A stretch of DNA of 60,477 nucleotides from an uncultured Eubacteriales bacterium (GTDB lineage: Bacteria > Bacillota > Clostridia > Christensenellales > CAG-314): the NCBI GenBank assembly GCA_949289125.1, contig CASEME010000029.1:1-60477 (forward strand). Reading direction: 5' to 3'. The stretch's first letter is position 1. Each line of letters opens with the position of its first letter. Below the pieces are notes generated by a model. The model was not told the origin of the DNA, searched no databases, and was given only the letters and a program-made list of their open reading frames with translations. This document shows, in pieces, positions 1-49,794 of this stretch. The position numbers and the translations under genes are program-made.

Positions 1-1392
1 ACAGACTATCAGCGTGAAGTAGTATTGAAGCGTAGCAAATTTGAGTTGGAAGAAGCCAAAGCACGTGCGCATATACTTGAAGGTCTGGTAATTGCTGTCA
101 ACAACATAGACGAAGTAGTGGCAATTATCAAAAAGGCAAGCGGCACATCGGACGCTAAGCAAAAATTGCGCGTACGCTTTGACCTGTCGGAAAAACAAGC
201 GCAGGCAATACTTGACTTGCGTTTGGCACGCCTTACACGATTGGAAGTAAACAAATTGATAAGCGAGTTGCAAGAGCTGGAGGCACGCATTGCTCGCTTG
301 CAGGTAATTATCAATAGCAAAAAGGAACAGATGAACCTCATCAAACAGGAAATGCTGTCCATCAAACGCAGTTACAAGAGCACACGCCGAAGCGATATTG
401 TAGGCTCGGTAACAGATACTTCTGTACCAAGCGAAACAGACGAAAAACCTATCGAAAACGTCATTGTGGCTATTGCTGCGGACAACACAATCAAACGCAT
501 ACCTATCAAAAACTTCAATATGAGCAACAAAGACGCTGTAGGTGCGTCCGATGGCGAAGTATTGTTGCACACCTGCGACACACTTACCAACAGCAAGGTA
601 ATGTTCTTTACCAACTACGGCAACTGTTATCAAACTGAAGTGTCCAAACTCAAAGAAACTCGTCTGCGCGACAGCGGTGTTGCACTGTCTACGGTGTTTA
701 GCGAGGCTACGCAGGGCGAAGTACCTGTTGCGCTGTTTGCTATGGGATTGGAAAGTATGCCCCAAGGCGAGCTTGTTATGTTTACAAGACAAGGTATGGT
801 AAAGCGCAGTAGTTGGAGCGAATATGCCTTGCTCAAAAGTGCATTCCAAGGCTATAAGGGCAAAGACGGCGACGAAATATTCCGCGTGGAGTGCGTCAAA
901 GAAGGCTCGCAAATATTCTATGTTACCAATAGAGGCGGTTGCACAAGGTTTAACACCGCAGAGATACCTTTGCAAGGCAGAGTGGCTGGTGGCGTAAGAG
1001 GCATTACTTTGGACGATGGCGAATACGTAGTGTTTGGCGGACAGGTAACGCCCGACAAAGGCGAAGTAGTGATGGTCACCAATAGCGGTTACCTCAAACG
1101 GCTGTCCATTGTCGATATAGCAAGGCATGCGCGCAACTGTAAGGGTGCAAAAGGTATTGAGTTTAGTGCGCTCAACGGTACGGCAGTTGTATTTGCCGAT
1201 TATGTCAACGACACGCATTACAACATAGCAATATACGATAAAGCCAACGTGTTGACAGTATATACAGGGGACGTTGCTGTAGAAAAGAAAAACACCAAAG
1301 GCAAGTTGCCTAAGGGCAAACGTGGCGCTATGTCCGTTGCTAAAGTTGTGCGTTACAAAACAAGTGCCGATTGTATATATAGGGACAAATAG
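1..1392 (+). CDS. parC: DNA topoisomerase IV subunit A, C-terminal part (5' end outside window)
   Basis: The reading frame is open from base 1, so the gene begins upstream and only about the last 463 residues are present. It starts in the breakage-reunion core (AKARAHILEGL, then FDLSEKQAQAILDLRLARLT and a coiled-coil arm), followed by the C-terminal beta-pinwheel that wraps DNA. The subunit pairs with ParE to decatenate daughter chromosomes. I favour ParC over GyrA for two reasons. The QRRGGKG-type GyrA box is absent where it should be (KRIPIKNFNMSNKDAVGAS). The local sequence (SNKDAVGASDGEVLL, then FFTNYGNCY) also resembles Gram-positive ParC. A GyrA with a lost box remains possible. It ends with TAG, and a strong terminator follows about 110 bases later. 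Confidence 0.8.
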   Translation, partial: TDYQREVVLKRSKFELEEAKARAHILEGLVIAVNNIDEVVAIIKKASGTSDAKQKLRVRFDLSEKQAQAILDLRLARLTRLEVNKLISELQELEARIARLQVIINSKKEQMNLIKQEMLSIKRSYKSTRRSDIVGSVTDTSVPSETDEKPIENVIVAIAADNTIKRIPIKNFNMSNKDAVGASDGEVLLHTCDTLTNSKVMFFTNYGNCYQTEVSKLKETRLRDSGVALSTVFSEATQGEVPVALFAMGLESMPQGELVMFTRQGMVKRSSWSEYALLKSAFQGYKGKDGDEIFRVECVKEGSQIFYVTNRGGCTRFNTAEIPLQGRVAGGVRGITLDDGEYVVFGGQVTPDKGEVVMVTNSGYLKRLSIVDIARHARNCKGAKGIEFSALNGTAVVFADYVNDTHYNIAIYDKANVLTVYTGDVAVEKKNTKGKLPKGKRGAMSVAKVVRYKTSADCIYRDK

Positions 1393-1541: not shown

Positions 1542-1692
1542 GTTGCGGTTGTTGTTTGTGTTGACGTTCTAAACATTTTGCTGCTTTCATACAATGTAAC
1601 GAAAAAATGCAGTTAATGACAAAAGGTGCAATTTTTCGCACTTCGGAAAGTTGTACAATATTTGCGTTGGCTTGTGCAGTAAGGGGCGCATT

Positions 1693-2427
1693 ATGAACAA
1701 AATGATTACCTGTGTAGCGGTAGTGTTGGCTGCCGTACTGATACTTGCAAGCATGGGCGGCTATGCAGTGGTTGTAGCTAATTCGCGCAAGTTGCCAATT
1801 TATGGTGTGGACCGAACAGACAACAAAGTATCTATTAGTTTTGATGCGGCTTGGGGAGCAGACAAGACGCGCGAAATAATGGATATTTGCGACAGATTCA
1901 ATGTAAAAGCCACATTCTTTTTGGTAGGCTTTTGGATAGAAAAGTATCCCGACCTTGTGGCAGAGATAGCGGCGCGTGGCTTTGAGATAGGCACGCACAG
2001 TATGACGCATCCGCAACTATCCAAACAGTCGGAAAGTAAAATTAACAACGAACTGTCACAAAGTATGTCTATGATTACCAATATTACAGGGCAAGAGGTC
2101 AAGCTGTTTCGTCCGCCCTTTGGCGACTACAACAACAGCGTCATAAGCGTAGCCGAAAACCTTGGCTTGTACACAATACAGTGGAGTGTGGACAGTTTGG
2201 ATTGGAAAGGCTTGTCCGCGTCGGAAATTGCACAGCGTGTAGGTACTATGCAAAGCGGTGATATCATACTTTGCCACAACAACAGCGACCACATCACAGA
2301 GGCTTTGCCTTTGATATTTGCACAAGCGCAACTAAAAGGGTTGGAGTTTGTACCTATTGGTGAACTTATATATACCGATGGCTACACGATAGACAGCAAT
2401 GGCATACAACATTGTACCGATGGTTGA
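1693..2427 (+). CDS. Secreted/membrane-anchored polysaccharide deacetylase (PdaB-like)
   Basis: A 244-residue NodB-fold (CE4) protein, expected to remove acetyl groups from cell-wall or spore-cortex sugars outside the membrane. The start is ATG 1693, with AAGGGG at 1681-1686; an in-frame ATG 42 bases upstream lacks a ribosome binding site. Residues 5-30 form a hydrophobic signal or anchor segment. Visible motifs are ISFDAAWG (Asp51), HSMTH (His102, His106), RPPFGDY (140-146), SLDW near 168 and the late LCHN (His195). The second Asp of the usual TFDDGP motif, a metal ligand, is Ala here. That pattern is typical of PdaB-like sporulation proteins rather than standard chitin deacetylases. Deacetylase activity should therefore not be assumed. 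The next gene starts 42 bases later. Confidence 0.85.
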   Translation: MNKMITCVAVVLAAVLILASMGGYAVVVANSRKLPIYGVDRTDNKVSISFDAAWGADKTREIMDICDRFNVKATFFLVGFWIEKYPDLVAEIAARGFEIGTHSMTHPQLSKQSESKINNELSQSMSMITNITGQEVKLFRPPFGDYNNSVISVAENLGLYTIQWSVDSLDWKGLSASEIAQRVGTMQSGDIILCHNNSDHITEALPLIFAQAQLKGLEFVPIGELIYTDGYTIDSNGIQHCTDG

Positions 2428-2469
2428 GCCGCAAGGCTACCTCACAATATACATTTGAAGGAGAAAATT

Positions 2470-3138
2470 ATGAACGAACTAACTCAGACAAACTATGTAA
2501 CGCTTTCGGGCAAAGTTGCAAGCAGTCCGGTATTTTCGCACGAAGTGTACGGAGAAAAGTTTTACGAAATTATATTGGACGTCAAACGTTTGTCCGATAT
2601 GACGGACAGTATCCCCGTGTCTGTATCCGAGAGGCTTATGCTCAACGGCTTGTTTGATATTGGCAAGGAAATAACAGTCAACGGACAGTTTCGCAGTTAC
2701 AACAAAGTGGTGGAAAACAAAAGCAAATTGATGCTTACTGTATTTGTAAAGGACGCTATGCCTTTGCAAGACGGTGTACATGCCAATTCGATATACCTTG
2801 AGGGTTTTGTGTGCAAACCTACAGTGTTTCGTACAACGCCATTTAACAGAGAGATAGCCGACATTTTGCTTGCCGTCAATCGTCAGTACAACAAAAGCGA
2901 CTACATACCCTGTATTGCATGGGGTAGAAATGCACGCTATGTAAAAACATTGCCTGTAGGTACACATATAGCCGTCAATGGCAGAGTGCAGTCTCGTGCA
3001 TATCAAAAGCGTCTTGACAACCAAACAGTTGTTACTCGTACAGCCTACGAAGTTTCGGTTAGCAAAGTGACTGTTATTACCGATAGTCTCAATCTCAACA
3101 GCGAGCAAAGCGAACAACAGCGTTTGCGCGTGTTATAA
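2470..3138 (+). CDS. Single-stranded DNA-binding-like protein with two OB folds
   Basis: A 222-residue protein. ATG 2470 is chosen because AGGAG sits at 2459-2463; an in-frame TTG at 2455 overlaps that site. It has two consecutive OB-fold-like halves, about residues 1-98 (NYVTLSGKVASSPVFSHEVYGE) and 99-205 (SIYLEGFVCKPTVFRTTPFN, then a YIPCIAWGRNARYV segment typical of SSB). A short polar tail follows. There is no acidic DDDIPF-type tip, so it is probably not the main replicative SSB. Two-OB-fold SSB relatives are common in Clostridia, and the role here is inferred from fold only. Confidence 0.7.
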   Translation: MNELTQTNYVTLSGKVASSPVFSHEVYGEKFYEIILDVKRLSDMTDSIPVSVSERLMLNGLFDIGKEITVNGQFRSYNKVVENKSKLMLTVFVKDAMPLQDGVHANSIYLEGFVCKPTVFRTTPFNREIADILLAVNRQYNKSDYIPCIAWGRNARYVKTLPVGTHIAVNGRVQSRAYQKRLDNQTVVTRTAYEVSVSKVTVITDSLNLNSEQSEQQRLRVL

Positions 3139-3213: not shown

Positions 3214-4995
3214 CTAAGTATTGGATTCTATATCTATTATCGGGTTGCGTTCACCCATTTTTTTGCGGCGCAGTATCACTACTACTGTAGTAATTGTTAG
3301 CGCAATAGCCACAGCAATAATTATCAGACCTACGACGGTATTTGTTGTGGGTGCATTGACGGCAATAAGATTGTCGTTGCTTACCCAGCCGTAGTAAAAT
3401 GTGCCGTTGTCGTTGACTACCTGCAAATAGCTGGAAAATGCGTTGCGCTCTATCACGTTGACGCGTGTACCCGAACTCAGCTTTATCACTTCACCGCTCT
3501 GTTGGTCTATTAACTGCTGGTCTTCTTCCAACGTTTCTGTCATGTACATTGCCGTGTTGTCCCACAATGTGCAATTAACTTTAAGATTGGGCGTATCTTT
3601 GTCCAAAGTCACTTCGTTGGTGGTGGAGGACGAATATATTGCCCCTACGTCAGTTGTCAGCACAAAGCCATAGTTGGTAGTCTGGTTGTGCGTATATTTT
3701 ACATAATACCACTTTGTACCGTCAGATGCGGTAAACTGTTGTAACAGTGTTACTTCGGCACGATTGTCCGTAGTCTGCGTAAATTTGGTACGTACAAACT
3801 TTTCCTTGTCGTTGACAGTGCAAGGCAAGTGGTACAAAAATACCGCATTGGCTGTTACAAAGTGCGATTTGTAGTTGATTACCGATGTGCCTACAGTGGT
3901 GTCGGTAATTTTTATTTTTTTGTCATCAGTTGCCTGTTGTGCGCTTTTCTTTATCCAGCCAAAAGCACCGTCTACAAATACATAGTAGTAGTTGTCTTCG
4001 CTATCTCCTTCATAACCCAATATAATAAAGGTTTTTTGTTGACCGTTGTCAATGAGGTTGGGTATGCTGTCTGCGCCTGTGGACTTGTAAATAATGTTGG
4101 CAGGGTAGGACAAAGCCGTTGCCTGTGTGTACGAAGTAATGTCGGACAAGTCGGGCGGCGTTAGCTGTACTGTGTCGCTACCTATCACGTAGTTGGCTTG
4201 CTTGAGATATTCTTCACCAACGGACGCTCTCGACCACTTCAGTACTTTGTTGTCACTAATTACATACAAATCGTTGCCGTTGGCTGTGATATCTCTTACA
4301 GGAGAGTTGTTTTCACTCACATCTATAGTTTTGTCACCAAGTGTAAATGAGCTTTCCGAGTAGGTAGCTATTTCTCCGCTTATATCCAATATACCTTTTG
4401 TAGTGGGATCAACCTCGGTGCGTGTGCCCAAACCATAGCTTGGATCGGTGTTGAAGTATTGATAATATCCGCTACCCAAAAAGTAACCTCTGTTGCCTAT
4501 AGCAATTATCGATATACCGCCACTAAATTGGTGCAGTGAGTTGTCTTGTTCGCCTATTACGTTGTACAGTCCTTCTGTCTTGATAATATACTGCGTGCCG
4601 TTGATAACAGTCATATCGATACGCGGTGAACTGATGGTGTGCGAGCTTACCGAGTAGCCTGCTGTTTCCATTGTCAGATACTTGTCTGTCTGCAATATAT
4701 ATATTGTGTCCTCTATGGTGTGCAACCTCAAAGTAGTGCCGCCAATGTCTACAGTCTGCACAAACTTTGGCTGTGCGCCGCTTACGTCAAATATATGTAT
4801 TACGCTTTCGTTGTCTGCAACGTTGTCAGCAATAAACACTTTGCCGTCATAGTAAATAATTTCTACAGGGTTAAGCAAATGTATATTTTCTTCCACTGTG
4901 GACAAAGTACTGCCCTCTGCAGCAAACGCATACATGGGTGCAACTGTAGCCACAGCCAAAACCAACAATATCAATGCAACGCTTATTTTTTTCAT
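3214..4995 (-). CDS. Large surface protein: signal peptide, propeller-like N-half, SH3-like repeats, C-terminal membrane anchor
   Basis: A 593-residue protein of unknown function. ATG 4995 is chosen because GTGAGGA lies just upstream and a classical signal peptide follows (MKKISVALILLVLAVATVAP). About residues 35-260 contain repeated short beta units (YYDGKVFIAD, DTIYILQ, NDLYVIS) suggestive of a propeller. The later part has repeated SH3b-like units (KWYYVKYTH then YGFVL; YYGWVSNDNL), as in wall- or ligand-binding proteins. A transmembrane helix near residues 553-577 precedes RRKK and a short cytoplasmic tail, so the bulk is outside the cell. The architecture resembles the protein at 5910-6692, and the two share a possible operator. 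Partner and ligand are unknown. Confidence 0.7.
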   Translation of the reverse strand: MKKISVALILLVLAVATVAPMYAFAAEGSTLSTVEENIHLLNPVEIIYYDGKVFIADNVADNESVIHIFDVSGAQPKFVQTVDIGGTTLRLHTIEDTIYILQTDKYLTMETAGYSVSSHTISSPRIDMTVINGTQYIIKTEGLYNVIGEQDNSLHQFSGGISIIAIGNRGYFLGSGYYQYFNTDPSYGLGTRTEVDPTTKGILDISGEIATYSESSFTLGDKTIDVSENNSPVRDITANGNDLYVISDNKVLKWSRASVGEEYLKQANYVIGSDTVQLTPPDLSDITSYTQATALSYPANIIYKSTGADSIPNLIDNGQQKTFIILGYEGDSEDNYYYVFVDGAFGWIKKSAQQATDDKKIKITDTTVGTSVINYKSHFVTANAVFLYHLPCTVNDKEKFVRTKFTQTTDNRAEVTLLQQFTASDGTKWYYVKYTHNQTTNYGFVLTTDVGAIYSSSTTNEVTLDKDTPNLKVNCTLWDNTAMYMTETLEEDQQLIDQQSGEVIKLSSGTRVNVIERNAFSSYLQVVNDNGTFYYGWVSNDNLIAVNAPTTNTVVGLIIIAVAIALTITTVVVILRRKKMGERNPIIDIESNT

Positions 4996-5014
4996 AAATA
5001 CGTCCTCACTAACA

Positions 5015-5033
5015 ACAGTACAGCGCGTACTGT
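5015..5033. promoter_or_regulatory. Palindromic operator candidate ACAGTAC-N5-GTACTGT
   Basis: A perfect 7-base inverted repeat with a 5-base spacer, lying between the predicted start of transcription (about 5040) and the ATG at 4995. Its core GTAC-N5-GTAC recurs at 6722-6734 upstream of the second SH3 surface protein. The position just downstream of the -10 box fits a repressor site. The regulator is unknown. Confidence 0.4.
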
Positions 5034-5046
5034 ATATACGTTTTTT

Positions 5047-5075
5047 ATTATACCAAACTTTGCGTGTTTTTTCAA
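5047..5075 (-). promoter_or_regulatory. Sigma-A-type promoter of the large surface protein
   Basis: On the minus strand, TTGAAA (5070-5075), a 17-base spacer and TATAAT (5047-5052), about 52 bases before the ATG at 4995. Apart from this promoter, the palindrome and the folded element at 5344-5383, the 432-base gap 4996-5427 shows only a weak inverted repeat near 5177-5205. Confidence 0.75.
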
Positions 5076-5343
5076 ACATTTTTTGCTACAATCGACATTT
5101 TTCGCAGACTTTGTGGTGGAGCGGCTAAAAAGTCCTGAGTATTCTGTTTGGCGGTCAAAAAGTAAAACAAAATAAAAATACGCCGACTAATATATCGACG
5201 TATTACAAACTTCTACATTTTTTTACAATCTTTGCGAACAAATGTTCTAAAATCTTGTCTCATATTGAATATATATGACATACAGTTGGCATATTTGCTG
5301 TGCTAATATGTTAGTGCAAAAAGCGATACAGCCCAAACATTTT

Positions 5344-5427: not shown

Positions 5428-5871
5428 ATGTATTATTACACCTTTTTGTTGCGTATTTTTGACAGTATCAACACCAAAAAAGATATGCTCGACAGAATAA
5501 TTATGCACAGGGCGGTAGTTACGCACAACTGCTATAGAGATAGTCTTGTGCGCACAACGTCCGAACAGATAACAGATATTGCACATCTTATTGCAGTCAA
5601 GTCCTCTCTTGAGTATCTAAGACAAAGCATAGTACAAGCTGTCAACTCTCTGTCCAAAAGCGACAGGCTGTTGCTTATTTTGTTGTACGTACGCAATGTG
5701 GACAAACAAAAGATATGCAAGTATTTTGGCTATTCGTTGCGTACCATGTACCGCAGAGCCAACAGCGCAGGCAATAGCTTTATGCTTGCTATGCAACACT
5801 TAGGCATAGACAAGCAATGGCTCAACGACAACGTGCGCTCAGCACTGATGAGCAAAATTATTGTGCGTTGA
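5428..5871 (+). CDS. Small sigma-70 region-4-like / helix-turn-helix protein
   Basis: A 147-residue protein; start ATG 5428 has AAGGAG at 5414-5419. Residues about 65-115 (LSKSDRLLLILLYV, KQKICKYFGYSLRTMYRRA) look like a sigma-70 region 4 or phage ArpU/RinA-type helix-turn-helix. There the LSKSDR stretch and the recognition helix YSLRTMYRRANSA are the main signals. No sigma region 2 is evident, so it is unlikely to be a complete sigma factor. Late-gene activators of phages often have this build. It lies between the two SH3 surface genes and one gene away from the phage cassette, so it may regulate either. That role is an inference from position. Confidence 0.5.
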   Translation: MYYYTFLLRIFDSINTKKDMLDRIIMHRAVVTHNCYRDSLVRTTSEQITDIAHLIAVKSSLEYLRQSIVQAVNSLSKSDRLLLILLYVRNVDKQKICKYFGYSLRTMYRRANSAGNSFMLAMQHLGIDKQWLNDNVRSALMSKIIVR

Positions 5872-5909: not shown

Positions 5910-6692
5910 TTACATATGTTTGTCGTAATAGCTTTCAGATGTGTTGCGTCTGATGTTGCCCGGCAAAAACATTGCTAATACCAGCCCTACGGCAAGCAGT
6001 ATTACAAATACGGTAAGCAGCACTTGTGCAAGCGTATCGTTTTCGGGTAGTTGGTCGGTCGGATCACCCGAATCATCGGGATTGATAGGTGTAGAGGGTT
6101 CATTTTCATCAGGCAGCGGAGTGGGGTGTAGCTGAATATCGGGTGCTGTGACGTCCGTACTCTCTACGTACCCAAATATATTGTTGTAGTACACATAGTA
6201 CCACACTTTGCCGCTACCGTTTATTTTGCCGTAATAGCTCATAGTTTGCGTATTGGTAGCAACTACCATTATCTCGGCATTATCGAGTGGGGAAAAACGC
6301 ACAGGTGCGCTGTTCTCCTTTACTTTGACGGTTTCTGTAGGATAGTAGGGATACTGCGGTGTGGAGTCTGCAACAGTTACTCTGTTTTTGAGTACGTACC
6401 CCGTTATTTTGGGGAAAAGCTCGGTGTTGCTCATCAACTCTACAAGATAGTAATCGGACTTTTCGTCTATCACTTTTACATAGTACGATTTTTCCAACAG
6501 GCAGGTAACTTTGAGTGTACTTGCATTGGTATACAGCTCGGTGTTGCCGTCAGTAATGCGCACCCACAAGTCGGTATCGTATTGTTGCTCATAGGCTTGC
6601 GCGGTGGTGTGCGGTGTACCAAGTAGCGTCATACAAACAATAGCAACAGCAAATATAGCAAGCGTTGCAGTAATAAGTTTTGCATTGTGCAT
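5910..6692 (-). CDS. Membrane-anchored surface protein with SH3-like repeats
   Basis: About 260 residues. ATG 6692 is preferred; GAGAGG lies 11 bases upstream, and an in-frame GTG at 6704 overlaps that site. It begins with a signal peptide (hydrophobic residues 6-24). Two SH3b-like units follow (TDGNTELYTNASTLKVTC; VWYYVYYNNIFGYVES). Next come a Pro/Asp/Glu-rich linker (PTPLPDENEPSTPINPDD), a transmembrane helix (LLTVFVILLAVGLVLAMFL) and a short basic tail. Topology is outside with a C-terminal anchor. It appears to be a shorter architectural relative of the 593-residue protein at 3214-4995. It is transcribed divergently from the terminase gene. Function unknown; wall or peptide binding is possible. 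Confidence 0.65.
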   Translation of the reverse strand: MHNAKLITATLAIFAVAIVCMTLLGTPHTTAQAYEQQYDTDLWVRITDGNTELYTNASTLKVTCLLEKSYYVKVIDEKSDYYLVELMSNTELFPKITGYVLKNRVTVADSTPQYPYYPTETVKVKENSAPVRFSPLDNAEIMVVATNTQTMSYYGKINGSGKVWYYVYYNNIFGYVESTDVTAPDIQLHPTPLPDENEPSTPINPDDSGDPTDQLPENDTLAQVLLTVFVILLAVGLVLAMFLPGNIRRNTSESYYDKHM

Positions 6693-6714
6693 ATCTTGTG
6701 ACACCTCTCTATTT

Positions 6715-6839: not shown

Positions 6840-8261
6840 ATGAAAGAGATTATTCAACGTATCAACTGTATAGAGCGCGAACAGCGTCGGCGCAAAGCTC
6901 AGCCTCTTGCTCGTTACAACAAAAGCAAAGTGCACAAAAAGCAGATGGCTTTTCACAAGTGCCTCAAAAACAACAGGTGGGTGTTTGGTGGCAACCGCAG
7001 TGGCAAAACGGAGTGTGGCGCAGTGGAAACGGTGTGGCTTGCACGAGGCATACACCCGTATAGAGCCAACAAAGACGACATCAGTTGTTGGGTGGTATCT
7101 CTTTCGCAACAGGTACAGCGCGACGTTGCTCAACAAAAGATACTGCATTACCTGGACAAAAATTGGATAAAAGAAGTGCGTATGTTGGAAGGCAGGCAGG
7201 ACAATCCATCGGGCGGGGTAATCGACTACATCATAATAGACAACATATTTGGCGGACAAAGCAAAATAGCTTTCAAAAGTTGTGAGGCAGGCAGAGAAAA
7301 ATTTCAGGGTGCTTCTCTCGACTTTGTATGGTTTGATGAAGAACCGCCTTTTGATATCTATCAGGAGTGTCGCATGCGTGTGTTGGACAGGTGCGGTCAC
7401 CTGTTTGGCACTATGACGCCGCTTAAAGGGCAAACGTGGGTATATGACGAGATATATCTCAACTGTCACAACAGCGACCAAGTGTGGTACGAGTTTATGG
7501 AGTGGGCTGACAACCCCTATTTGGACGGCGCAACGGTAACAAATATGTCGCAAAGTATGTCGGAGGACGAATTGGACAGCAGACGATACGGACACTTTAG
7601 AGCCAACAGCGGGCTGATATACGGTGAGTTTGATGCACAGGTACACGTTATCCAACCGTTTGACGTGCCTTACGAGTGGCAGGATTGCCTTTCTATCGAT
7701 CCCGGTCTCAACAATCCGTTGTCCTGTCATTGGTATGCGGTGGACGGTGACGGCAATGTGTACGTGGTGGCAGAGCATTATATGGCAAACAAAAGTTTGT
7801 CTTATCATGCCAACGCCATTATTGAGAAGTGTCGCCAACTTAATTGGCATACCGACAAATACGGTCGCATATCTGCCTACATCGATTCTGCCGCCAACCA
7901 ACGCACTTTGTCGGGCGTCAACAGCGTGGCAGAGTTGCTTTTTAAGGCGGGTATCAATGTCAACACCAAGGTCAACAAAGACGTGTGGGCAGGTATTAGC
8001 ATTGTAAAACAATATTTGCACGTGGTAGAGGGTAAGCCTAAGTTGTACATATTTTGCAACTGCGTCAATATGATACGCGAGTTTAAGACCTACTATTGGG
8101 GCAACAACGACGCACCTGTCAAACGTGACGACCACGCTATGGACGAGTTGAGATATTACCTTGCAACACGTAGACAAAGTGCAACAAGCTCAATGTCCAA
8201 AAGCGCAGTACAAAAGGACAAGGAACGACTGTATCGCAAATTGCATAACAGAGGTTATTGA
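6840..8261 (+). CDS. terL: Phage terminase large subunit
   Basis: A 473-residue DNA-packaging motor and nuclease. ATG 6840 is chosen with AAAGGTG at 6821-6827; an in-frame TTG at 6816 is less likely. The N-terminal ATPase has Walker A GGNRSGKT (50-57) and Walker B FVWFDEEPP (Asp166, Glu167). The C-terminal RNase-H-like nuclease keeps its acidic residues: SIDPG (Asp287), AYIDSAAN (Asp349) and DDHAMDEL (430-437). Nothing looks broken. It would translocate DNA into proheads through the portal encoded at 8819. It opens an unbroken plus-strand run of structural genes ending at 15710. Confidence 0.93.
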   Translation: MKEIIQRINCIEREQRRRKAQPLARYNKSKVHKKQMAFHKCLKNNRWVFGGNRSGKTECGAVETVWLARGIHPYRANKDDISCWVVSLSQQVQRDVAQQKILHYLDKNWIKEVRMLEGRQDNPSGGVIDYIIIDNIFGGQSKIAFKSCEAGREKFQGASLDFVWFDEEPPFDIYQECRMRVLDRCGHLFGTMTPLKGQTWVYDEIYLNCHNSDQVWYEFMEWADNPYLDGATVTNMSQSMSEDELDSRRYGHFRANSGLIYGEFDAQVHVIQPFDVPYEWQDCLSIDPGLNNPLSCHWYAVDGDGNVYVVAEHYMANKSLSYHANAIIEKCRQLNWHTDKYGRISAYIDSAANQRTLSGVNSVAELLFKAGINVNTKVNKDVWAGISIVKQYLHVVEGKPKLYIFCNCVNMIREFKTYYWGNNDAPVKRDDHAMDELRYYLATRRQSATSSMSKSAVQKDKERLYRKLHNRGY

Positions 8262-8280
8262 GGAGGGGATAGTACAATCA

Positions 8281-8598
8281 ATGCAGTTGAAAGCACTTAT
8301 CAACAAAATTCTCACCAAAAAGGCAAAAGGATATACAACGCGCGAAAAAACAGAGGACTATACGGTAAGCGACGGACAGGCTGTGCTTGTCAAACGAAAA
8401 ATTGTCACCAAGCACGTGCCTCCCGACATCAACGCAGTCAAAGCGTTGCTACAGCTATCGGATATAGACAACGGAGACGTGGACAGCATGACAGACGCGC
8501 AGTTGGAAGTGGAGCGCTTGCGCCTTATCGGTTTGTTGAAAGTATGCGATAGCGTAAGCCAAAGCCAAAACACAGAAAAGGAGAACAATAATGATTGA
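8281..8598 (+). CDS. Small packaging-cassette protein resembling the C-terminal tail of a terminase small subunit
   Basis: A 105-residue protein starting at ATG 8281, with GAGGAGGGG about 11 bases upstream. Its middle (TKHVPPDINAVKALLQL), preceded by a charged EDYTVSDGQAVLVKRK stretch, resembles the conserved C-terminal part of phage small terminase subunits, usually K.VPPDTTA..FWLKNR. The DNA-binding helix-turn-helix that normally precedes it is missing. It may be a reduced TerS or a packaging accessory. The last eight bases overlap the next gene. Confidence 0.5.
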   Translation: MQLKALINKILTKKAKGYTTREKTEDYTVSDGQAVLVKRKIVTKHVPPDINAVKALLQLSDIDNGDVDSMTDAQLEVERLRLIGLLKVCDSVSQSQNTEKENNND

Positions 8599-8815
8599 AA
8601 AAAACATTTACAAAGTAAGTTGCGACATCAAAAATTGCAAAAATGCGGCAAAGTATGTTTTGCCTATTAAGGGCAGGGCAAGCAGAATGTATATCTGCGA
8701 ACACTGCCTCAGAGCTATAGCGCAAGATTACAACCTAATGATAGTGCCCAAAAGTCCCAAAAACGCTATCAAAAAGCGTATGGACGAAAATGCTCAAAGC
8801 ATCAAGGGGGAATAA
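8591..8815 (+). CDS. Small four-cysteine (zinc-ribbon-like) protein
   Basis: A 74-residue protein with AAAGGAG just upstream of ATG 8591. Cys11, Cys16, Cys36 and Cys39 (CDIKNC and CEHC) could bind zinc. The tail is basic (KNAIKKRMDE). It overlaps the preceding gene by eight bases and the portal gene follows four bases later, so all three are translationally linked. No family is recognised. A role in DNA handling or head assembly is only suggested by position. Confidence 0.55.
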   Translation: MIEKNIYKVSCDIKNCKNAAKYVLPIKGRASRMYICEHCLRAIAQDYNLMIVPKSPKNAIKKRMDENAQSIKGE

Positions 8816-8818
8816 TGT

Positions 8819-10723
8819 ATGTCTAACAAAATTTCAACAACCAAAAAAGCAGTAACCGACGACCTTGCACGCAAGGCACAGCAGTTGCGCACAGAGGCAC
8901 TGGTCAACGATATACATAAGGACTTTGAACAAAGGCAGGCAATGCGCCGCCCTTATGAACTCAGTTGGCAACTCAACATGAACTTTATGATGGGCAACCA
9001 ATACTGTACGGTGTCGGGCAGAGGGGATATAGAGCAGGAAGATAAATACTTTTTTTGGCAGGAAAGACAGGTATTCAACCACATTGCCCCTATAGTAGAA
9101 ACGAGAGTGTCCAAACTGTCCAAAGTGCGTCCACGCCCTGTAGTGCGCCCCTTCAGCAATGCAGACAGCGACGTGTTTTCTGCCAAAATGTCTACCAAAA
9201 TATTGGACAGTACCACCGAGCGTCTTGCTTTGAGTACACTTATTCAGCAAGCCACAATGTGGAGCGAGGTGTGCGGCACAGTGTTTTACAAAGTGACGTG
9301 GGGCAGTGGAAAAACAATCAGTTACAACGGCAACAACATTGCGTTGGGTGACGTCAACATAACGGTGTGTCCGCCCTTTGAAATATATCCCGACAGCAAC
9401 GTCAATCAGAGCATTGCCGATTGTCAGTCGGTAATACACGCGCGTGCATACAGTGTGGAAGACATCAAACGGCTATGGGGTGTGGACATAGCAGGCGGTC
9501 GTGTGCGAGTGTTTGCAATAGACGGTACTTCAGTAATTGGCGGTTTGGGCTACAACAGCACAATAAGCGGAATTACTCACGAAACAAAAAACAACCATGC
9601 TTTGGTAATAGAGCGTTATACACGACCAAACAGTCAATATCCGCAAGGCAGATTGGAAATTGTAGCAGGCAATCAACTGCTGTACGAGGGCGATTTGCCC
9701 TACGTATTGGGTGAGGAAGGCGAGCGTGACTTTCCCTTTGTGCGCCAAATGGCGTTTGGACATGCAGGGTGTTTTTGGGGTAGCAGCGTAGTGGACAGGT
9801 GCATACCTGTTCAGCGTGCATACAATGCGCTCAAAAACCGCAAGCACGAATTTATCAACCGCTTGTCTATGGGTGTACTAACGGTAGAGGACGGCTCGGT
9901 AGACACCGACAACCTCGAGGAAGAAGGTTTGTCACCAGGCAAAATACTTGTGTACAGACAGGGCGCAACACCTCCTTGTATGATGGACTGTGGCAGTGTG
10001 CCTGTAGACTTTCAGTACGAAGAGGACAGATTGCTCAACGAATTTACCGCAGTATCGGGAGTGTCCGAATTTGCCTTTCAAAGCACTGCCCCTGCAAACA
10101 TCAATAGCGGTACGGCACTGCAACAGCTGTCCAATCAGGACGACAATCGTATGGCAGTATCTACCGACAGCATAAGAGAGGCGGTGAGAGTGATAGCCAA
10201 ATACGTATTGAGGCTGTACAAGCAGTATGCGCACTCGGGATACCTTGCCAAAATTGCCGACAACAAAGGCAATGTAGAAGCCTTTTACTTCAACAGCAAC
10301 GACATAGCAAGTACGGACGTGGTGTTTGAGACGGAAAACGAACTTGCCAACAGCATTACTCAACGCAGAAACTTAGTTATGGAACTGTTGTCCAAAGGCG
10401 TGTTGACAGATGCGGACGGCAATTTGCCACAAACAACCAAAGCACGCATTTTGGAAATGTTGGGATTAGGTAATTGGGAAAATGCGCAGGACATTACTCA
10501 GTTGCATATATCGCGCGCCCAGCAGGAAAACATAGCTATAGGCAGTGCAGACGTGTTGCCAATAGACGACCACAGATTGCACATAACAGAGCATACACGC
10601 TTTGTAATAGGCGGCGAGGCTTTCAAATTGGGACAGCAAGCCTATGTACAAAAAGTATTGCAACACATAGAACAGCATCAAAACACAATGGAGGCACAAA
10701 ATGGAAAAGGACAACAAATTTGA
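8819..10723 (+). CDS. Phage portal protein (P22/podovirus type)
   Basis: A 634-residue protein; ATG 8819 has AAGGGGG at 8804-8810. It forms the dodecameric DNA channel at one head vertex. Recognition rests on the P22-type N-terminus (RPYELSWQLNMNFMMGNQY), the following VFNHIAPIVETRVSKLSKVR segment, the length, and its place between terminase and scaffold/capsid. The mid-part contains ERYTRPNSQYPQGRLE and the conserved FPFVRQMAFGHAGCFWGSSV region. The C-terminus is Gln-rich. It overlaps the scaffold gene by 23 bases. The full length argues for selection or recent entry. An alternative family such as HK97 portal is unlikely given the motifs. Confidence 0.85.
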   Translation: MSNKISTTKKAVTDDLARKAQQLRTEALVNDIHKDFEQRQAMRRPYELSWQLNMNFMMGNQYCTVSGRGDIEQEDKYFFWQERQVFNHIAPIVETRVSKLSKVRPRPVVRPFSNADSDVFSAKMSTKILDSTTERLALSTLIQQATMWSEVCGTVFYKVTWGSGKTISYNGNNIALGDVNITVCPPFEIYPDSNVNQSIADCQSVIHARAYSVEDIKRLWGVDIAGGRVRVFAIDGTSVIGGLGYNSTISGITHETKNNHALVIERYTRPNSQYPQGRLEIVAGNQLLYEGDLPYVLGEEGERDFPFVRQMAFGHAGCFWGSSVVDRCIPVQRAYNALKNRKHEFINRLSMGVLTVEDGSVDTDNLEEEGLSPGKILVYRQGATPPCMMDCGSVPVDFQYEEDRLLNEFTAVSGVSEFAFQSTAPANINSGTALQQLSNQDDNRMAVSTDSIREAVRVIAKYVLRLYKQYAHSGYLAKIADNKGNVEAFYFNSNDIASTDVVFETENELANSITQRRNLVMELLSKGVLTDADGNLPQTTKARILEMLGLGNWENAQDITQLHISRAQQENIAIGSADVLPIDDHRLHITEHTRFVIGGEAFKLGQQAYVQKVLQHIEQHQNTMEAQNGKGQQI

Positions 10724-11231
10724 CAACTTTGAAAGTTTGCACAATTCCTATTGCGAGCTTGAAAAGAAATTCACACAAAAATGTCAACAGGCGGCAGAAT
10801 TGGAACGCCGTCTTGAACAGTACAACAATGAGAGCGGTACAAACGTGCAAACGTCACCGCAAACTACGGCAGAGCAATTTTACGAGCAGCACCCGTTAGC
10901 ACGTAATTTTAAGGAGCGCATAGACGAGGCAATGTCGAACCCCGAAGTACAAGCCACTTCGGACGCTATTAAGGCTTGCTACATAAATTGTCTTGAAAGC
11001 GATTACCGCACGCCGCAGCAGATGGCAGAGGACGAGCAATTTTTGCAACAATACATAGTCAACGACCGCAAAGTGCGTGATATGATACTGCAACAAATGC
11101 TTGCCCAAACTGCCGACACTCGTTACCCTGTCACAATCAGTGGCAACGGTGGCAATATGTCTTTGGCACAGCCAACGCGCCCTAAGACTTTAGAAGAAGC
11201 GTCCGTGTTGGCAAAAAATTACTTCAAATAA
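10701..11231 (+). CDS. Putative phage head scaffold protein
   Basis: A 176-residue, charged, largely helical protein located between portal and capsid, the usual scaffold position. The N-terminal half is coiled-coil-like (LHNSYCELEKKFTQKC, AAELERRLEQYNN). The C-terminus holds a short basic/aromatic end (LEEASVLAKNYFK), as in scaffolds that contact coat protein. Its start lies inside the end of the portal gene (23-base overlap). No protease is encoded nearby, so the scaffold would leave intact, as in P22. The assignment is by position and composition. Confidence 0.6.
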   Translation: MEKDNKFDNFESLHNSYCELEKKFTQKCQQAAELERRLEQYNNESGTNVQTSPQTTAEQFYEQHPLARNFKERIDEAMSNPEVQATSDAIKACYINCLESDYRTPQQMAEDEQFLQQYIVNDRKVRDMILQQMLAQTADTRYPVTISGNGGNMSLAQPTRPKTLEEASVLAKNYFK

Positions 11232-11244
11232 GGAGAACTAACAC

Positions 11245-12405
11245 ATGGTAACACTTACAAGTGCGGAAAACGCATTAAAAACACTGTATCTCGGAGTAGT
11301 GGCAGACCAGCTCAATACGGCGGTCAATCCGCTGTTGGCAAAGTTTAGCCAAACAACTTCGGACGTATGGGGCAAAGAAATTAGAAAACTTGCGCCCTTT
11401 GGCATCAACGGCGGTATAGGCGCAGGCACAGAGGACGGCGAATTGCCCAAAGCCTCACAAAACAACTATGCGCAGTTTGTGCTGACCTTGAAAAACTTGT
11501 ACGGCACAATAGAGATATCTGACAAAGCAATACGTGCCAGCCAAAACAACAGCGGTGCTTTTGTCAATCTGCTCAATGCAGAGATGGAAGGTCTTATAAA
11601 AGCAAGCAAATTCAACTTTGGTCGTATGTTGTTTGGGGACGGTAGCGGTACTTTGTGTACAGTAGTGTCTCAGTCGGGCAACGAAATTACAGTTGATAAC
11701 GTCAAAAATGTTATCGAAGGTATGGTAGTAGATATACTTGACGACAGCAACAAAGAAAAGTTGATTGAGGCTCACCGCATAGTATCGGTAGACCGCAAAG
11801 GCAAAAAAATTGTGTTGTCCGGCTCGGTATCTTCGGTAGCAAGCGCAGGCGACATTGTCACTGTGCAATCGAGTTACGACAAAGAGTTGACGGGCTTGGG
11901 CGCGATTTTTGGCGATAGCGAATATTTGTACGGGCTCAAACGTGCCGACAACAAATGGCTTACACCCTACAAAGCTACTTCTGCCGATATTACAGACGTT
12001 GTTATTCAGACAGCTATTGACAATCTCGAAGAAGTATCGGGCAGTATGGCAGACTTCATTGTGTGCTCAAGCGGTGTAAAACGCGCATACCAAAACTATC
12101 TTATTACCAACCGCACCAACATAGATATTATGAATTTGCAGGGCGGTTACAAAGCTATCAGCTACAACGGTATTCCTTTGGTAAGCGACAGATTTGCTCC
12201 CGAAGGCACTATGTACATACTCAATACCTCCGACTTCCATTTACACCAGTTGTGCGATTGGCGTTGGCTTGAGGGGGACGACGGCAGAGTAATAAAGCAA
12301 GTGGCAGGCAAACCCGTCTATACGGCAACACTTGTCAAATATGCCGACCTTATCTGCGACAGACCTATCGGTCAGGCAATGATTAGCGGCATTACCGAAG
12401 CATAA
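11245..12405 (+). CDS. Phage major capsid protein
   Basis: A 386-residue protein; ATG 11245 follows AAGGAG at 11229-11234. The N-terminal region (WGKEIRKLAPFGINGG, then LYGTIEISDKAIRAS) and the Gly-rich FGDGSG loop are typical of clostridial phage coat proteins with the HK97 fold. The gene follows directly after scaffold and portal. An inserted beta-rich stretch about residues 145-200 (EITVDNVKNVIEGMVVDIL, VLSGSVSSVASAGDIVTV) could be an insertion domain like that of P22-type coat proteins. The protein would form the icosahedral shell. The reading frame is intact. Confidence 0.85.
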   Translation: MVTLTSAENALKTLYLGVVADQLNTAVNPLLAKFSQTTSDVWGKEIRKLAPFGINGGIGAGTEDGELPKASQNNYAQFVLTLKNLYGTIEISDKAIRASQNNSGAFVNLLNAEMEGLIKASKFNFGRMLFGDGSGTLCTVVSQSGNEITVDNVKNVIEGMVVDILDDSNKEKLIEAHRIVSVDRKGKKIVLSGSVSSVASAGDIVTVQSSYDKELTGLGAIFGDSEYLYGLKRADNKWLTPYKATSADITDVVIQTAIDNLEEVSGSMADFIVCSSGVKRAYQNYLITNRTNIDIMNLQGGYKAISYNGIPLVSDRFAPEGTMYILNTSDFHLHQLCDWRWLEGDDGRVIKQVAGKPVYTATLVKYADLICDRPIGQAMISGITEA

Positions 12406-12419
12406 AAGGAGACAGATGT

Positions 12420-12722
12420 ATGAGTGCGGCGATTTGTGGCAAAGTAATTTGTTCGGACGTATTTGATATAGCACATAGGTTGAAGCAGATAGACAGCAGA
12501 TATTTTGTAGTGTACAACACAGTAAAACGCCGTTACGAAGTGCATAACAGCGGGCAAAAGGGCAACACCTTTTGCCTTGTTGTGCCTTATGACTGCTTGG
12601 ACGCGCGCACACTCGATTATGTGAGGCGTACACGTGTCAGCAACAGCAAAGAGCTTATTGAGCAGATTGAGGCGGACAACGCAAGGCTTCAACGTGAGAT
12701 ATTGCAAAGTAAGGCGCAATAG
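12420..12722 (+). CDS. Small conserved phage head-region protein
   Basis: A 100-residue protein with AAAAGGAG shortly before ATG 12420. The sequence (HRLKQIDSRYFVVYN, KRRYEVHNS, TLDYVRRTRV, then a helix ELIEQIEADNARL) resembles a short protein that often follows the capsid gene in clostridial phages. Its function is not known to me. Position suggests a head-completion or decoration role, inferred only. Confidence 0.55.
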   Translation: MSAAICGKVICSDVFDIAHRLKQIDSRYFVVYNTVKRRYEVHNSGQKGNTFCLVVPYDCLDARTLDYVRRTRVSNSKELIEQIEADNARLQREILQSKAQ

Positions 12723-12757
12723 TACATTAATCAAACATTGGACAAAGGAGGTGCAAT

Positions 12758-13333
12758 GTGACAGTAAGAGAAATATTGAGTGTAGTCAACGGTTTGCTCA
12801 ATTTGGGCATAGACCAGCAGTTGTTTTTGGCGCAAGCGGACAGTTCGTTGCGTTCGATAGTAGCAAACGACGGCACAATACCCAAGTTGTTGCAATGCCT
12901 CAACTGTGTTATTGACGAGCTTGCTTGCGACTATGCGCCCAATACTGTGCTAACTCACGTAGTAAGCAAAGATGGCAAAGTAAATTATAGCGATATAGAC
13001 AAGCCCTTGCTCGAAGTGGTGTCGCTTACCGACTCGTTTGGTAGTAATGTGCGTTTTCGCTACACGGTAGACGGACTGATGACAGAATGTAGCGGAAGAT
13101 TGGAGCTTGTGTATTCCACGCCATACGACAAAGTGGATTTTTGGAGCGAAGTCAATCTTTCCAATCACAAACTTACTCAGCGCACGCTTGCTTATGCTGT
13201 ATGTGCAGAATACTGTTTGACAATGGGCGACTATCAGGGTGTGGCGCTGTGGGACGAACGCTATCGCAACAATCTTGCGTTGGCAAGCGTCAAACGTTCG
13301 GAGATGCGTATGCGTGAGCGGAGGTGGCCGTGA
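12758..13333 (+). CDS. Putative head-tail connector (P22 gp4-like position)
   Basis: A 191-residue protein using GTG 12758; AAAGGAGGTG at 12744-12753 is an almost perfect ribosome binding site. The mostly helical N-terminus (VREILSVVNGLLNLGI) and later ERYRNNLALASVKRSEMRMR fit a portal-adjacent tail-completion protein such as P22 gp4, but similarity is weak. Its TGA overlaps the next ATG (TGATG at 13331-13335), so translation is coupled to the hub-like protein. Confidence 0.5.
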   Translation: MTVREILSVVNGLLNLGIDQQLFLAQADSSLRSIVANDGTIPKLLQCLNCVIDELACDYAPNTVLTHVVSKDGKVNYSDIDKPLLEVVSLTDSFGSNVRFRYTVDGLMTECSGRLELVYSTPYDKVDFWSEVNLSNHKLTQRTLAYAVCAEYCLTMGDYQGVALWDERYRNNLALASVKRSEMRMRERRWP

Positions 13334-14757
13334 TGACTTTTGCTCGTCCGCCATTGCCTGTTGGCAATACAAAAGTTAGCAGTGTGCGTTTGCGCTTTGA
13401 CGGCGGTATAGATATTGTATCCCAAAGTTGCGACCTAACGCTTGCTACTGCGCAGTTGTGCTACAACGTGATATGTGGCAAATACGGTGTCAAAAGCGGT
13501 TGGGGTATAGATTATCTCACCGACATCAAAGGCAACAAGTGGCAGTTTGGACAAAAGCTAAAAGGCTTTTGGTACGCAGGCGCAAGCAATGGAGGCAACT
13601 ACATAGCGCACCTTGAGGACAATAAGCTGTACTTTGTGGACGCCCAACAAGGCACGCTAAGCGCAGTGTCGCAAGACCAATTTGATACATACTTTCAGTC
13701 CTTTTTGTTTACCTTTGAAGAGGGCGAAGGATTGGTATTGACAGACGGTAGTAAGTGTATAGTGCTTGTCAACAATGCTATGCAACAGATAGCTGCCCCC
13801 TCGTTTTGTATAGGCGAGGTGCATAGTCGGCGATTGTTTGTAGCAAGTGGCAAGGACGACGTGTTGCATTTCTGCGCGCCTGCCAATGCAACAGATTGGA
13901 CAACGGACGGTTTTGGCGCAGGCAACATCACGCTTGCTAACGGCAAAGGCAACATTGTGGCTTTATCATCCTACAAAAACTATCTGTACATTTTTTGCCA
14001 AAGAGGGGTAACAAAAGCTGAGATACATGGCAATGCGTCCGAGTTTGAGTTGACTGAGTGCAATGTTAATTGTGGCACAATACATGGCAACACAGTAAAA
14101 GCGTGTGGCGAAAAAATTGTTTTTGTTGCGGACAACGGCTTGTACTCTTTTGACGGTACCAAGGCAGTGCAACTCTTAAGCGGCATAAGCAATTTGTTTG
14201 ATAAGCAAAGTTTTAGCAGTTGTGTTGCACAGTATCACAACGGCAAGTATATTTTGGCATTTCGAGCAAATTTTGGCGACAACAACAAGGTACTTTGCGA
14301 GTTCGGTCAGTATGTCAACAACGCATTGCTGATATACGACACAACGGATAGCAACTACAGCATTATGCGTGGTGCAGATGTTTGTGAGATGTATGTGTAC
14401 AACAGTAGTCTTTTGCTCAACGTGCGCTACAACAATAGTGTTGTTACAGGGTGTTTGTCGCAAAGTGGCAAATTGTTTGACAACAGTATGCCCAAGTTGC
14501 GTATAAGTGCGCCCTATCGCTTTGACAGCTTGGACAAAAAATTTGTGCGCTACGTGGAAGTGGGCAAAGTGTGCGGTGACGTGCAGTTGGTGGTAGTATC
14601 AGATGGCACAGTCAACTTGTATGCTGTCCAACGTAGCAACCTGCCTCAAAAGATAATGGTGCGTACACAAGCGCAGGAGTTTGCTATAGGTATAGTGGCT
14701 ACTTCTGCAACTTTTGAGGTGGACACATTGAACATTGTGTACACAACTTCGCAATAA
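13333..14757 (+). CDS. Putative beta-rich tail hub protein (P22 gp10-like position)
   Basis: A 474-residue protein. ATG 13333 is preferred; GAGG lies 8 bases upstream, and in-frame GTG codons at 13324 and 13330 are alternatives. It is rich in beta strands with repeated short propeller-like units (YIAHLEDNKLYFVDAQQG, NYLYIFCQRGVTKAEI, KIVFVADNGLYSFDG). This is as expected for the P22 gp10 or T7 gp12-type tail hub that docks onto the portal-connector. The family call is inferred from order, size and composition. The TGATG junction ties it to the connector-like gene. Confidence 0.55.
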   Translation: MTFARPPLPVGNTKVSSVRLRFDGGIDIVSQSCDLTLATAQLCYNVICGKYGVKSGWGIDYLTDIKGNKWQFGQKLKGFWYAGASNGGNYIAHLEDNKLYFVDAQQGTLSAVSQDQFDTYFQSFLFTFEEGEGLVLTDGSKCIVLVNNAMQQIAAPSFCIGEVHSRRLFVASGKDDVLHFCAPANATDWTTDGFGAGNITLANGKGNIVALSSYKNYLYIFCQRGVTKAEIHGNASEFELTECNVNCGTIHGNTVKACGEKIVFVADNGLYSFDGTKAVQLLSGISNLFDKQSFSSCVAQYHNGKYILAFRANFGDNNKVLCEFGQYVNNALLIYDTTDSNYSIMRGADVCEMYVYNSSLLLNVRYNNSVVTGCLSQSGKLFDNSMPKLRISAPYRFDSLDKKFVRYVEVGKVCGDVQLVVVSDGTVNLYAVQRSNLPQKIMVRTQAQEFAIGIVATSATFEVDTLNIVYTTSQ

Positions 14758-14774
14758 AAAGGGGGTGGGTAAAT

Positions 14775-15710
14775 ATGACAGACGAAATTACCACAGAGGC
14801 AAAAGCGGCTTCGTATGTGGAGCAAAAGCGCGACGAGCTGTTGGAAAAACTGCGCGAGATAGACCGCAAGTATAGCACAGAGTACCAAGATCCCGAGCTC
14901 AACCTGCCCGAAAGTCTTGGATTGGAAAAAATGACATTTACTATGCCCGATGCTGAGCAACTTACAAAGCGTGCACGTGAAAGCATAATTGCCGATTACA
15001 CAGACAAAAAGTACGATATACAAGAAGAAGCTCGTCAACAAACTTTCAATGCAGAACAGGAAAAAGAGCAAATCAACGTTGATGCCGACGAGGATATACA
15101 ACAACTCAACGAGCAGTACTGTGAGGACAGAAAAAAGTGTTGTGCCGACGCTTTAGACCAAGGTATTTTTACTTCTTCTGTTTATCAGGCAAAGTTAAGA
15201 CAGCTTGCCGACCAACTGAAGCAGTCGATAGCAGCAGTGGAAGCACAACGTACGCAAAAGTTGCAACAGCTTACCGACCAACTCACGCAAATTGCAGACA
15301 ATATGCAACAGCAACTTGCCAATTTGGACGATGTTTTTGAACATCAGTTGCAAGAGGCAATCAACGAGTGGACGGACGAAGCATACAAGCAACAACAAAC
15401 GGTGTTGAAGTACAACAACACCGTGCAGGAAAAAGAGCAAGAATATGTGCTTACTCGTGAAAAGACAACATTCAACGCATTTATGGACGAGGCAAGCAGA
15501 GCCATAGAGGCAAGCAATCTTATTGCTAATATTGGTTACACGGCTTTGTCTATGCTCATCAAACAAGAAAAGACAGACTTGTGCAAAAAGTTTTTTGGCG
15601 AAACAGGCAAAGCCAATGCTCTCGCTATCATCGATATATGCCCAGAGTTACAAGGGCATACAGGTGAATACTATGCTTATTTGTTGGACTACGTAGAGAA
15701 TATGGAATAA
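14775..15710 (+). CDS. Coiled-coil protein closing the phage cassette
   Basis: A 311-residue protein; ATG 14775 follows AGGGGGTGGG. About residues 10-240 are strongly helical and Gln/Glu/Lys-rich with long heptads (KLRQLADQLKQSIAAVEAQR, LQQLTDQLTQIADNMQQQL). The C-terminal 65 residues look globular (ASNLIANIGYTALSMLIK). It could be a tail needle, an internal ejection protein, or a host-specific fitting. None is proven. It has no transmembrane segment. It is the last gene before a large hairpin and the converging nadE. Confidence 0.5.
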   Translation: MTDEITTEAKAASYVEQKRDELLEKLREIDRKYSTEYQDPELNLPESLGLEKMTFTMPDAEQLTKRARESIIADYTDKKYDIQEEARQQTFNAEQEKEQINVDADEDIQQLNEQYCEDRKKCCADALDQGIFTSSVYQAKLRQLADQLKQSIAAVEAQRTQKLQQLTDQLTQIADNMQQQLANLDDVFEHQLQEAINEWTDEAYKQQQTVLKYNNTVQEKEQEYVLTREKTTFNAFMDEASRAIEASNLIANIGYTALSMLIKQEKTDLCKKFFGETGKANALAIIDICPELQGHTGEYYAYLLDYVENME

Positions 15711-23751: not shown

Positions 23752-24555
23752 ATGGACAACGGCAACATCACATACAAAAACATTGCTGTGCTTGTGGACG
23801 GAGACAACACACAATACAGCAAAATGCAATCGGTGATACAAAAGATATCCACTTACGGCAGAATAGTGGTAAAAAGAGTGTACGGCAATTGGAAGAAGGA
23901 AGGACTGAAAAATTGGGAAAACGAAATAAAAAGCCTTGCCTTCAAAGCACAGCAACAGTTTGACTACGTAACGGACAAAAATGCCACCGACATGGCACTT
24001 ACTATAGATGCAATGGATTTGTTGTACACAGGTACTTACGATGCATTTGTAATAGTATCAAGCGATAGCGACTATACGCCGCTCAATATCCGTCTTAAGG
24101 AAGCAGGTATTTTTGTAATAGGCGTAGGCAAGCAAAATGCGTCTGAGGCGTTCAAGCGTTCGTGCGACGACTTTATTGAGATAGAAAGTTTAGACGATGA
24201 TGACAGTGCTATCAATACACCTGCAGTACAGAAAACTCAAAAACAGAGTAACAGCAAATTGTCTAACAAAAAGGTTGACATAGATAGTGAGCAATCGGAA
24301 ACAACTATGACACCTAACGAATTGCACAGATTGTTGAGAGTGGCAGCAGATACAGAAGCCTATCAGGACGAAGATGGCTTTGTTAATGTCAGTTCTGCAG
24401 GTACATACATAAAACGTGTGCGTCCCGACTTTGATATAAAAAAGTTTGGCTGCAAAAAATTGCCTGAGTTTATCAAAAAGTATGACAATATGTACGAAGT
24501 TAAAAAGTACAAAGGTAAAGGTAAAGTATATATCATAGCGTATAAATGCAAATAA
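23752..24555 (+). CDS. NYN-domain nuclease-like protein with C-terminal OST-HTH/LOTUS domain
   Basis: A 267-residue protein; GAGGAG precedes ATG 23752. Residues about 8-150 form a NYN (PIN-like, metal-dependent RNase) domain. Asp residues sit in the expected places: VLVDGDNTQ (near 17-20), NATDMALTIDAMDL, and VSSDSDYTPL with EAGIFVIGVG after it. A polar Ser/Lys linker leads to a LOTUS/OST-HTH-like domain (about 185-265: ELHRLLRVAADTEAYQDEDG, CKKLPEFIKKYDN), thought to bind RNA. It is probably an RNA-processing or quality-control nuclease. Its target is unknown and it has its own promoter. Confidence 0.85.
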   Translation: MDNGNITYKNIAVLVDGDNTQYSKMQSVIQKISTYGRIVVKRVYGNWKKEGLKNWENEIKSLAFKAQQQFDYVTDKNATDMALTIDAMDLLYTGTYDAFVIVSSDSDYTPLNIRLKEAGIFVIGVGKQNASEAFKRSCDDFIEIESLDDDDSAINTPAVQKTQKQSNSKLSNKKVDIDSEQSETTMTPNELHRLLRVAADTEAYQDEDGFVNVSSAGTYIKRVRPDFDIKKFGCKKLPEFIKKYDNMYEVKKYKGKGKVYIIAYKCK

Positions 24556-49511: not shown

Positions 49512-49794
49512 GCGTTGTAGCCAATTTTTTTATTTTAGCTATCATTCTACTCTCAGTAGAGTGCTGTTTTTTCTCTCTACTGCCTTGTAATCTAACAATT
49601 TATATTGCTACTGTAGTGTCTACTTTGCAGGCAATGCTTCTCTAAATGGCTAATACTCAACATTCTACATCTGTAAGTGCACAGTAGGGTGCATTGAGTG
49701 TTATCACGTGTATAATAGTGGCACAATCAACAACAGATAACGTAGCGCAGCACATACAACTATGCGCACAGACGCTTATTTTTGGAGGTGTTTT

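Follow-up and report, generated by a model that had tools for sequence, protein, structure and literature searches.

What does a set of phage head genes do in a bacterial chromosome if the rest of the phage is missing? The question is raised by a stretch of 60,477 nt (hereafter the window) belonging to a 1.33 Mb, 29-contig, 92% complete genome. Between positions 6840 and 15710 it carries a phage head and DNA-packaging set of ten plus-strand genes, encoding large terminase (TerL), small terminase (TerS), zinc ribbon, P22-type portal, scaffold, capsid, a small protein, adaptor, hub and a coiled-coil protein (DUF7934). The set might be the remnant of a prophage, a satellite dependent on another phage, a weapon, or a structure that the host maintains for its own ends, including a particle resembling a gene transfer agent (GTA).

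Architecture of the locus

The features of the locus are given in Table 1. A first-pass annotation, made without database searches, had read here ten head and packaging genes on one strand, a TerL with all catalytic residues, good ribosome binding sites and host-like composition, and these readings are borne out. Family matches (phrog, Pfam) support the gene set; the Walker A (GGNRSGKT) and Walker B (VWFDEE) motifs and the nuclease acidic residues of TerL are all present and are kept in relatives; ribosome-binding-like sites occur at the cassette genes; and codon usage is that of the host (cassette vs host r=0.90; GC3 0.51 vs 0.48). The names given to scaffold and adaptor are supported by position and conservation alone, because neither has a direct match in family profile searches; for the adaptor neither a known-fold nor a family match was found. 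PDB sequence searches turned up nothing useful for the capsid, hub or adaptor profile, and with the portal profile they matched one phage portal.

Table 1. Genes of the cassette and of its upstream neighbourhood, in window coordinates.
Feature	Position	Strand	Support
parC	25-1392		Conserved upstream chromosomal context; Pfam; same order in many order-level loci
Polysaccharide deacetylase (pda) and SSB genes	1651..3138	+	Conserved upstream context with parC; Pfam
Large secreted SH3-like protein gene d, recurrent neighbour	3214..5079	-	SH3_3 0.00067; many loci have family d/d2 ahead of the cassette
Putative activator, phage late-activator / sigma region 4-like	5428..5871	+	phrog_248 4.5e-6; positionally conserved in 49 loci
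Signal-peptide/TM protein gene f, divergent from terL	5910..6704	-	Conserved in 53 loci; stays with TerL in split cassettes
Large terminase (TerL), ATPase and nuclease	6840..8261	+	phrog_2 1.8e-27; Terminase_6N/6C; catalytic motifs kept in 18-member alignment
Small terminase (TerS), predicted to lack an N-terminal DNA-binding domain	8281..8598	+	phrog_309; start 8272-8281 uncertain
Small zinc-ribbon-like protein	8591..8815	+	Sequence; homologues in cassettes of several lineages
P22-type portal protein	8819..10723	+	phrog_156 3.5e-34; P22_portal 1.3e-18
Scaffold-like protein	10701..11231	+	Lies between portal and capsid genes; family conserved across 61 loci
Major capsid protein	11245..12405	+	phrog_14242 8.1e-66; alignment with relatives
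Small conserved protein g7	12420..12722	+	Conserved family; phage relatives have g7 too
Head-completion/adaptor-like protein	12758..13333	+	Follows g7 and precedes hub; family conserved across 54 loci
Hub/virion structural protein	13324..14757	+	phrog_3287 9.2e-10
Long coiled-coil protein, DUF7934 (PF25588)	14775..15710	+	DUF7934 3.5e-23

No integrase, repressor or replication gene was found beside the cassette, whose neighbours are parC, the deacetylase, SSB, two secreted or membrane proteins (the product of gene f has no Pfam match) and nadE. The first-pass annotation had seen no integrase, replication or lysis genes; this stands for the window proteins scanned, none of which was recognised as a phage protein for integration, replication or lysis, although the cassettes of many relatives end in holins. 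The same annotation listed no regulator, a point on which it can now be amended: the gene just upstream of gene f resembles phage late activators and remains beside TerL where the cassette is split, and from its sequence its product is the probable regulator of the cassette. Elsewhere in the window, the product of 49762-50520 resembles proteins of the phage tail-fibre and lipase families (phrog_15641 8e-8, phrog_6102 8e-7) and is probably an esterase; that of 23752-24555, NYN/LabA-like by inspection, matches phrog_37744 at 4e-71.

The cassette TerS is short (about 105 residues) and, judged from its sequence and predicted model, is without an N-terminal DNA-binding domain. Of its relatives, 28 of 32 match phrog_309; the window protein itself reaches 0.0024-0.004, aligned at profile positions 202-242 of 319. 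The predicted model (mean pLDDT 90) consists of a helix, a beta hairpin and two helices. Among solved structures its best match, heading the list at a weak Z of 4.5, is the oligomerisation core of an SPP1-like TerS; a Foldseek search against the PDB returned nothing significant, and among viral models the top matches are terminase small subunits.

For the last gene, DUF7934 was found in 22 of 22 relatives. Its model (pLDDT 93) has helices of up to 119 residues and shows weak structural matches to podoviral internal virion proteins: the protein is perhaps an internal-virion or tail-tip component, a suggestion that depends on the model. The cassette yielded no gene for a tail fibre or a receptor-binding protein. 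A BhlA holin stands at the cassette end in several families, some of which add a phi-LC3-type holin; in the window's own genome, as far as it is assembled (92% complete), searches for BhlA and Phage_holin_1 gave nothing above the cut-off.

Distribution, inheritance and selection

Of the 41 genomes of the family, 40 have the portal, nearly always as a single copy, as in the window's own genome; the sole genome without it is 82% complete and lies in about 270 contigs. Across the order Christensenellales, 172 of 297 genomes carry it, spread over 63 of 125 genera and 17 of the 33 families sampled (sixteen show none); it is almost always a single copy with an open frame. Phylum-wide sampling gave matches to the portal at a stringent 1e-60 in only 6 of 398 genomes, the window's own among them. 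Carriers include Candidatus Borkfalkia, which NCBI taxonomy assigns to the Christensenellaceae, Christensenellales. The same taxonomy places Candidatus Fimimonas merdipullorum under Myxococcota, probably in error.

About 80 loci from different genomes share the order TerL-TerS-(zinc ribbon)-portal-scaffold-capsid-(g7)-adaptor-hub-coiled coil, and upstream of it the activator and the divergent membrane-protein gene recur. The first-pass annotation had named as its check a search of related genomes for the cassette at this locus, between parC/SSB-like genes and nadE, and held that a cassette missing here, or sitting elsewhere in a complete prophage, would refute its reading. The cassette is found at the equivalent locus in relatives and is not within a complete prophage. 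Of the proposed flanks, the parC-pda-ssb side is conserved in many loci, distant ones included; nadE is not a conserved neighbour. A minority clade lies in a different neighbourhood (L065, L066, L067, L115), and one locus differs again (L071). Two loci (L129 and L186, genome G128) have one cassette with two tandem, diverged major capsid genes, and IMG/VR files chromosomal contigs bearing the cassette as viruses (L280, L312 and others).

If the cassette is inherited with the host, its phylogeny should follow that of a host gene. Trees of portal plus capsid and of rpoB, compared for 27 genomes (with the rpoB of G083 left out), have 14 of 24 splits in common, including families represented by several genomes, where shuffled labels give at most 2; the Mantel correlation is 0.47 against a permutation maximum of 0.38. 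Some conflicts between the trees are supported (e.g. the placement of G058/G071), and the cassette may now and then have been transferred. The capsid tree gathers the order's cassettes into what is almost a single clade, separate from phage relatives and from family f71; one phage contig with a partial capsid row (L302) breaks it by nesting among them.

Pairwise dN/dS (NG86, close pairs only) ranges from 0.017 to 0.115 for TerL, 0.042 to 0.155 for portal and 0.045 to 0.179 for capsid; scaffold and hub evolve faster, yet remain below 0.45. Purifying selection on terL, portal and capsid is strong, and the values near 1 that would have contradicted the first-pass annotation are not seen. Its suggestion of an old resident element, GTA-like and kept for a purpose, is thus supported by the equivalent locus in relatives, the absence of a complete prophage and the strength of selection.

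Dispersal, decay and the choice between explanations

Several lineages have TerL 20-130 kb away from the remaining head genes. The f28 genomes, mostly of 0.8-1.3 Mb, keep activator, membrane-protein gene, TerL and large secreted protein together at one locus, and carry the TerS-to-hub block and holins on that contig too, but at a distance of tens of kb, about 106 kb at most; TerL is likewise apart from the portal in the genomes of L083, L087 and L120. In G616, 53 kb separate the portal from the scaffold-capsid pair. In f71, from another order of the same class, portal, TerL and a scaffold-capsid-hub block occupy three different contigs, and in all four genomes seen (L363, L364, L367, L374) the lone portal adjoins, on its 5' side, spoIIIAF-AG-AH-like genes, named by sequence inspection only. 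That the scattered parts are retained intact cannot be reconciled with an element that packages itself, and points to selection acting on the host. Other genes are found near the dispersed parts: MgtC-like and nicotinate-phosphoribosyltransferase-like genes come after the f71 lone portal, the lone portal of L368 (G616) is near topA- and dprA-like genes, and a secreted protein of 700-800 aa (cluster c42) follows TerL in L064, L082, L083, L087, L369 and L370, above all where TerL is separated.

Some sister lineages show real decay: in G054 (L375) TerL is truncated and DNA-methylase-like and HTH genes have been inserted, with adaptor and hub still there, G063 has a partial TerL and G204 a truncated portal. 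The window cassette shows none. A decayed prophage, which the first-pass annotation kept as the plain alternative and which these three genomes and the survival of head genes alone might suggest, is scarcely tenable: the genes are full-length, under strong purifying selection and retained across the order, so that for the window we regard decay as excluded. Nor are the head genes surrounded by the integrase, repressor, replication and lysis modules expected of a temperate prophage. The lack of lysis and replication genes in the cassette would suit a satellite or hitch-hiking element that uses another phage for both, an option raised at the outset. Such an element should be mobile, with an integrase and a patchy distribution independent of locus; instead there is no integrase, the chromosomal place is conserved, the phylogeny follows the host and the genes are split over several loci in sister lineages. 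We consider a satellite very unlikely, and largely excluded by the vertical inheritance, the conserved location and the dispersal.

Two further readings also involve retention by the host. The same gene evidence that fits a GTA-like particle fits a defective-phage weapon, packing host DNA without delivering it and retained because it kills relatives; among Gram-positives the classic example is PBSX, which does not inject the DNA it packs (PMC12946183). We think this improbable: the cassette has no tail sheath, tube, fibre or bacteriocin-type gene. A domesticated capsid might otherwise serve the cell in some way other than transfer, as a DNA-packing compartment or a development-linked structure, and the absence of a detected holin in the window's genome and the position of the f71 portal after spoIIIAF-AH-like genes speak for it; the intact TerL nuclease and the holins of many sister cassettes fit lytic release better, and the spo names have only inspection behind them. 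This too we hold to be unlikely, while leaving a small place for its broader form, in which an order-old domesticated capsid system, scattered in several lineages, now has a non-transfer function such as DNA packing or a development-linked role.

In our judgement the cassette is likely to be a GTA-like viriform that the host has domesticated and passes on vertically. It shows four genomic features of GTAs: structural genes derived from a Caudoviricete reside in the host chromosome; the cluster has no genes for autonomous replication or integration (window scans and relatives' loci); TerS is without a sequence-specific DNA-binding domain, as far as a weak structural match allows; and inheritance is vertical with the host, as judged from the splits shared with rpoB and the conserved location. 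Since particle content and transfer remain unproven, we call the cassette GTA-like and stop short of naming it a GTA. What is said here of particle production, random packaging, DNA delivery and regulation is inference, and no experiment shows particles, packaged DNA or transfer. Also weighing against this reading are the holin and tail-fibre genes not found for the window, the supported tree conflicts, the nested phage contig L302, the sixteen families lacking a portal and the three relics.

On this GTA-like reading, the upstream late-activator-like protein would switch on the operon, and scaffold and capsid would build a small head on the portal. A TerS without a DNA-binding domain would no longer pick a phage pac site, leaving TerL to fill heads with roughly random host DNA; adaptor and hub might then seal each head with a neck of minimal, perhaps podovirus-like, form. 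Particles could leave only by lysis, which holins at the cassette end could provide in many sister families and which in the window's genome would fall to an unidentified, unlinked gene. ComEC is present in the window's genome and in 272 of 297 genomes of the order; being nearly universal there, its co-occurrence with the cassette is uninformative, and its presence is only consistent with delivery of DNA to recipients.

Comparison with known systems

Few GTAs have been described outside Alphaproteobacteria, and if the cassette is one, GTAs would extend to an entire order of gut Clostridia that are abundant, for the most part uncultured and very small in genome (0.8-2 Mb). GTA-like packaging has been seen in Christensenellaceae, for which the main text of the report names no gene cluster (PMC12946183); NCBI includes Candidatus Borkfalkia, a carrier of the cassette, in that family, and the cassette could be the missing cluster behind the packaging reported for human faeces. 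The repeated break-up of the cassette with all parts kept offers a natural test for host-level selection, and an HTH-less TerS downstream of TerL, a parC-pda-ssb flank and a late-activator gene together provide a signature with which to search for such elements.

Homologous portals and capsids are found in the actinophages Shocker and Jasmine and their relatives (24-29% identity) and, at higher identity, in IMG/VR phages such as L286 and L323, the former also having relatives of scaffold, g7 and hub. These differ in being full phage genomes. On related phage contigs TerL is preceded by a TerS of HTH type and is itself mostly of another type, and additional tail genes are present. PBSX of Bacillus subtilis is likewise a resident phage-like element of a Gram-positive that packs host DNA, without injection (PMC12946183); it is a tailocin-like killer, whereas no tail genes were seen in the window cassette. 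With RcGTA (Rhodobacter capsulatus), to which no homology is established, the cassette has in common vertical inheritance and chromosomal phage head genes. The RcGTA tail is longer and siphovirus-like, and its function, unlike that of the window cassette, is experimentally proven. The RcGTA TerS is also without an N-terminal DNA-binding domain, proposed there as an explanation for random packaging (PMC6854486).

Among described systems FpGTA of Faecalibacterium (2026) comes nearest, although sequence homology with the window cassette is not established. FpGTA has a ten-gene, 10.5 kb operon, 40 nm capsids containing 8.4-8.9 kb of random host DNA and a second operon for tail and lysis (PMC12946183). 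The likeness to FpGTA I lies in a ten-gene head operon of about 10 kb with TerL, portal, scaffold, capsid and an HTH-less TerS (stated for FpGTA to be without a DNA-binding domain; PMC12946183), in the short-tailed type, in membership of the class Clostridia and in the absence of replication genes. The second operon occurs in several Faecalibacterium strains; none was found for the window cassette, whose own genome was searched for two holin families only. Gene order differs as well: the FpGTA TerS is upstream of TerL (CDS15 before CDS16), that of the window downstream. FpGTA I is near-universal in its genus; the window cassette, unlike FpGTA, spans an order and is split in several lineages.
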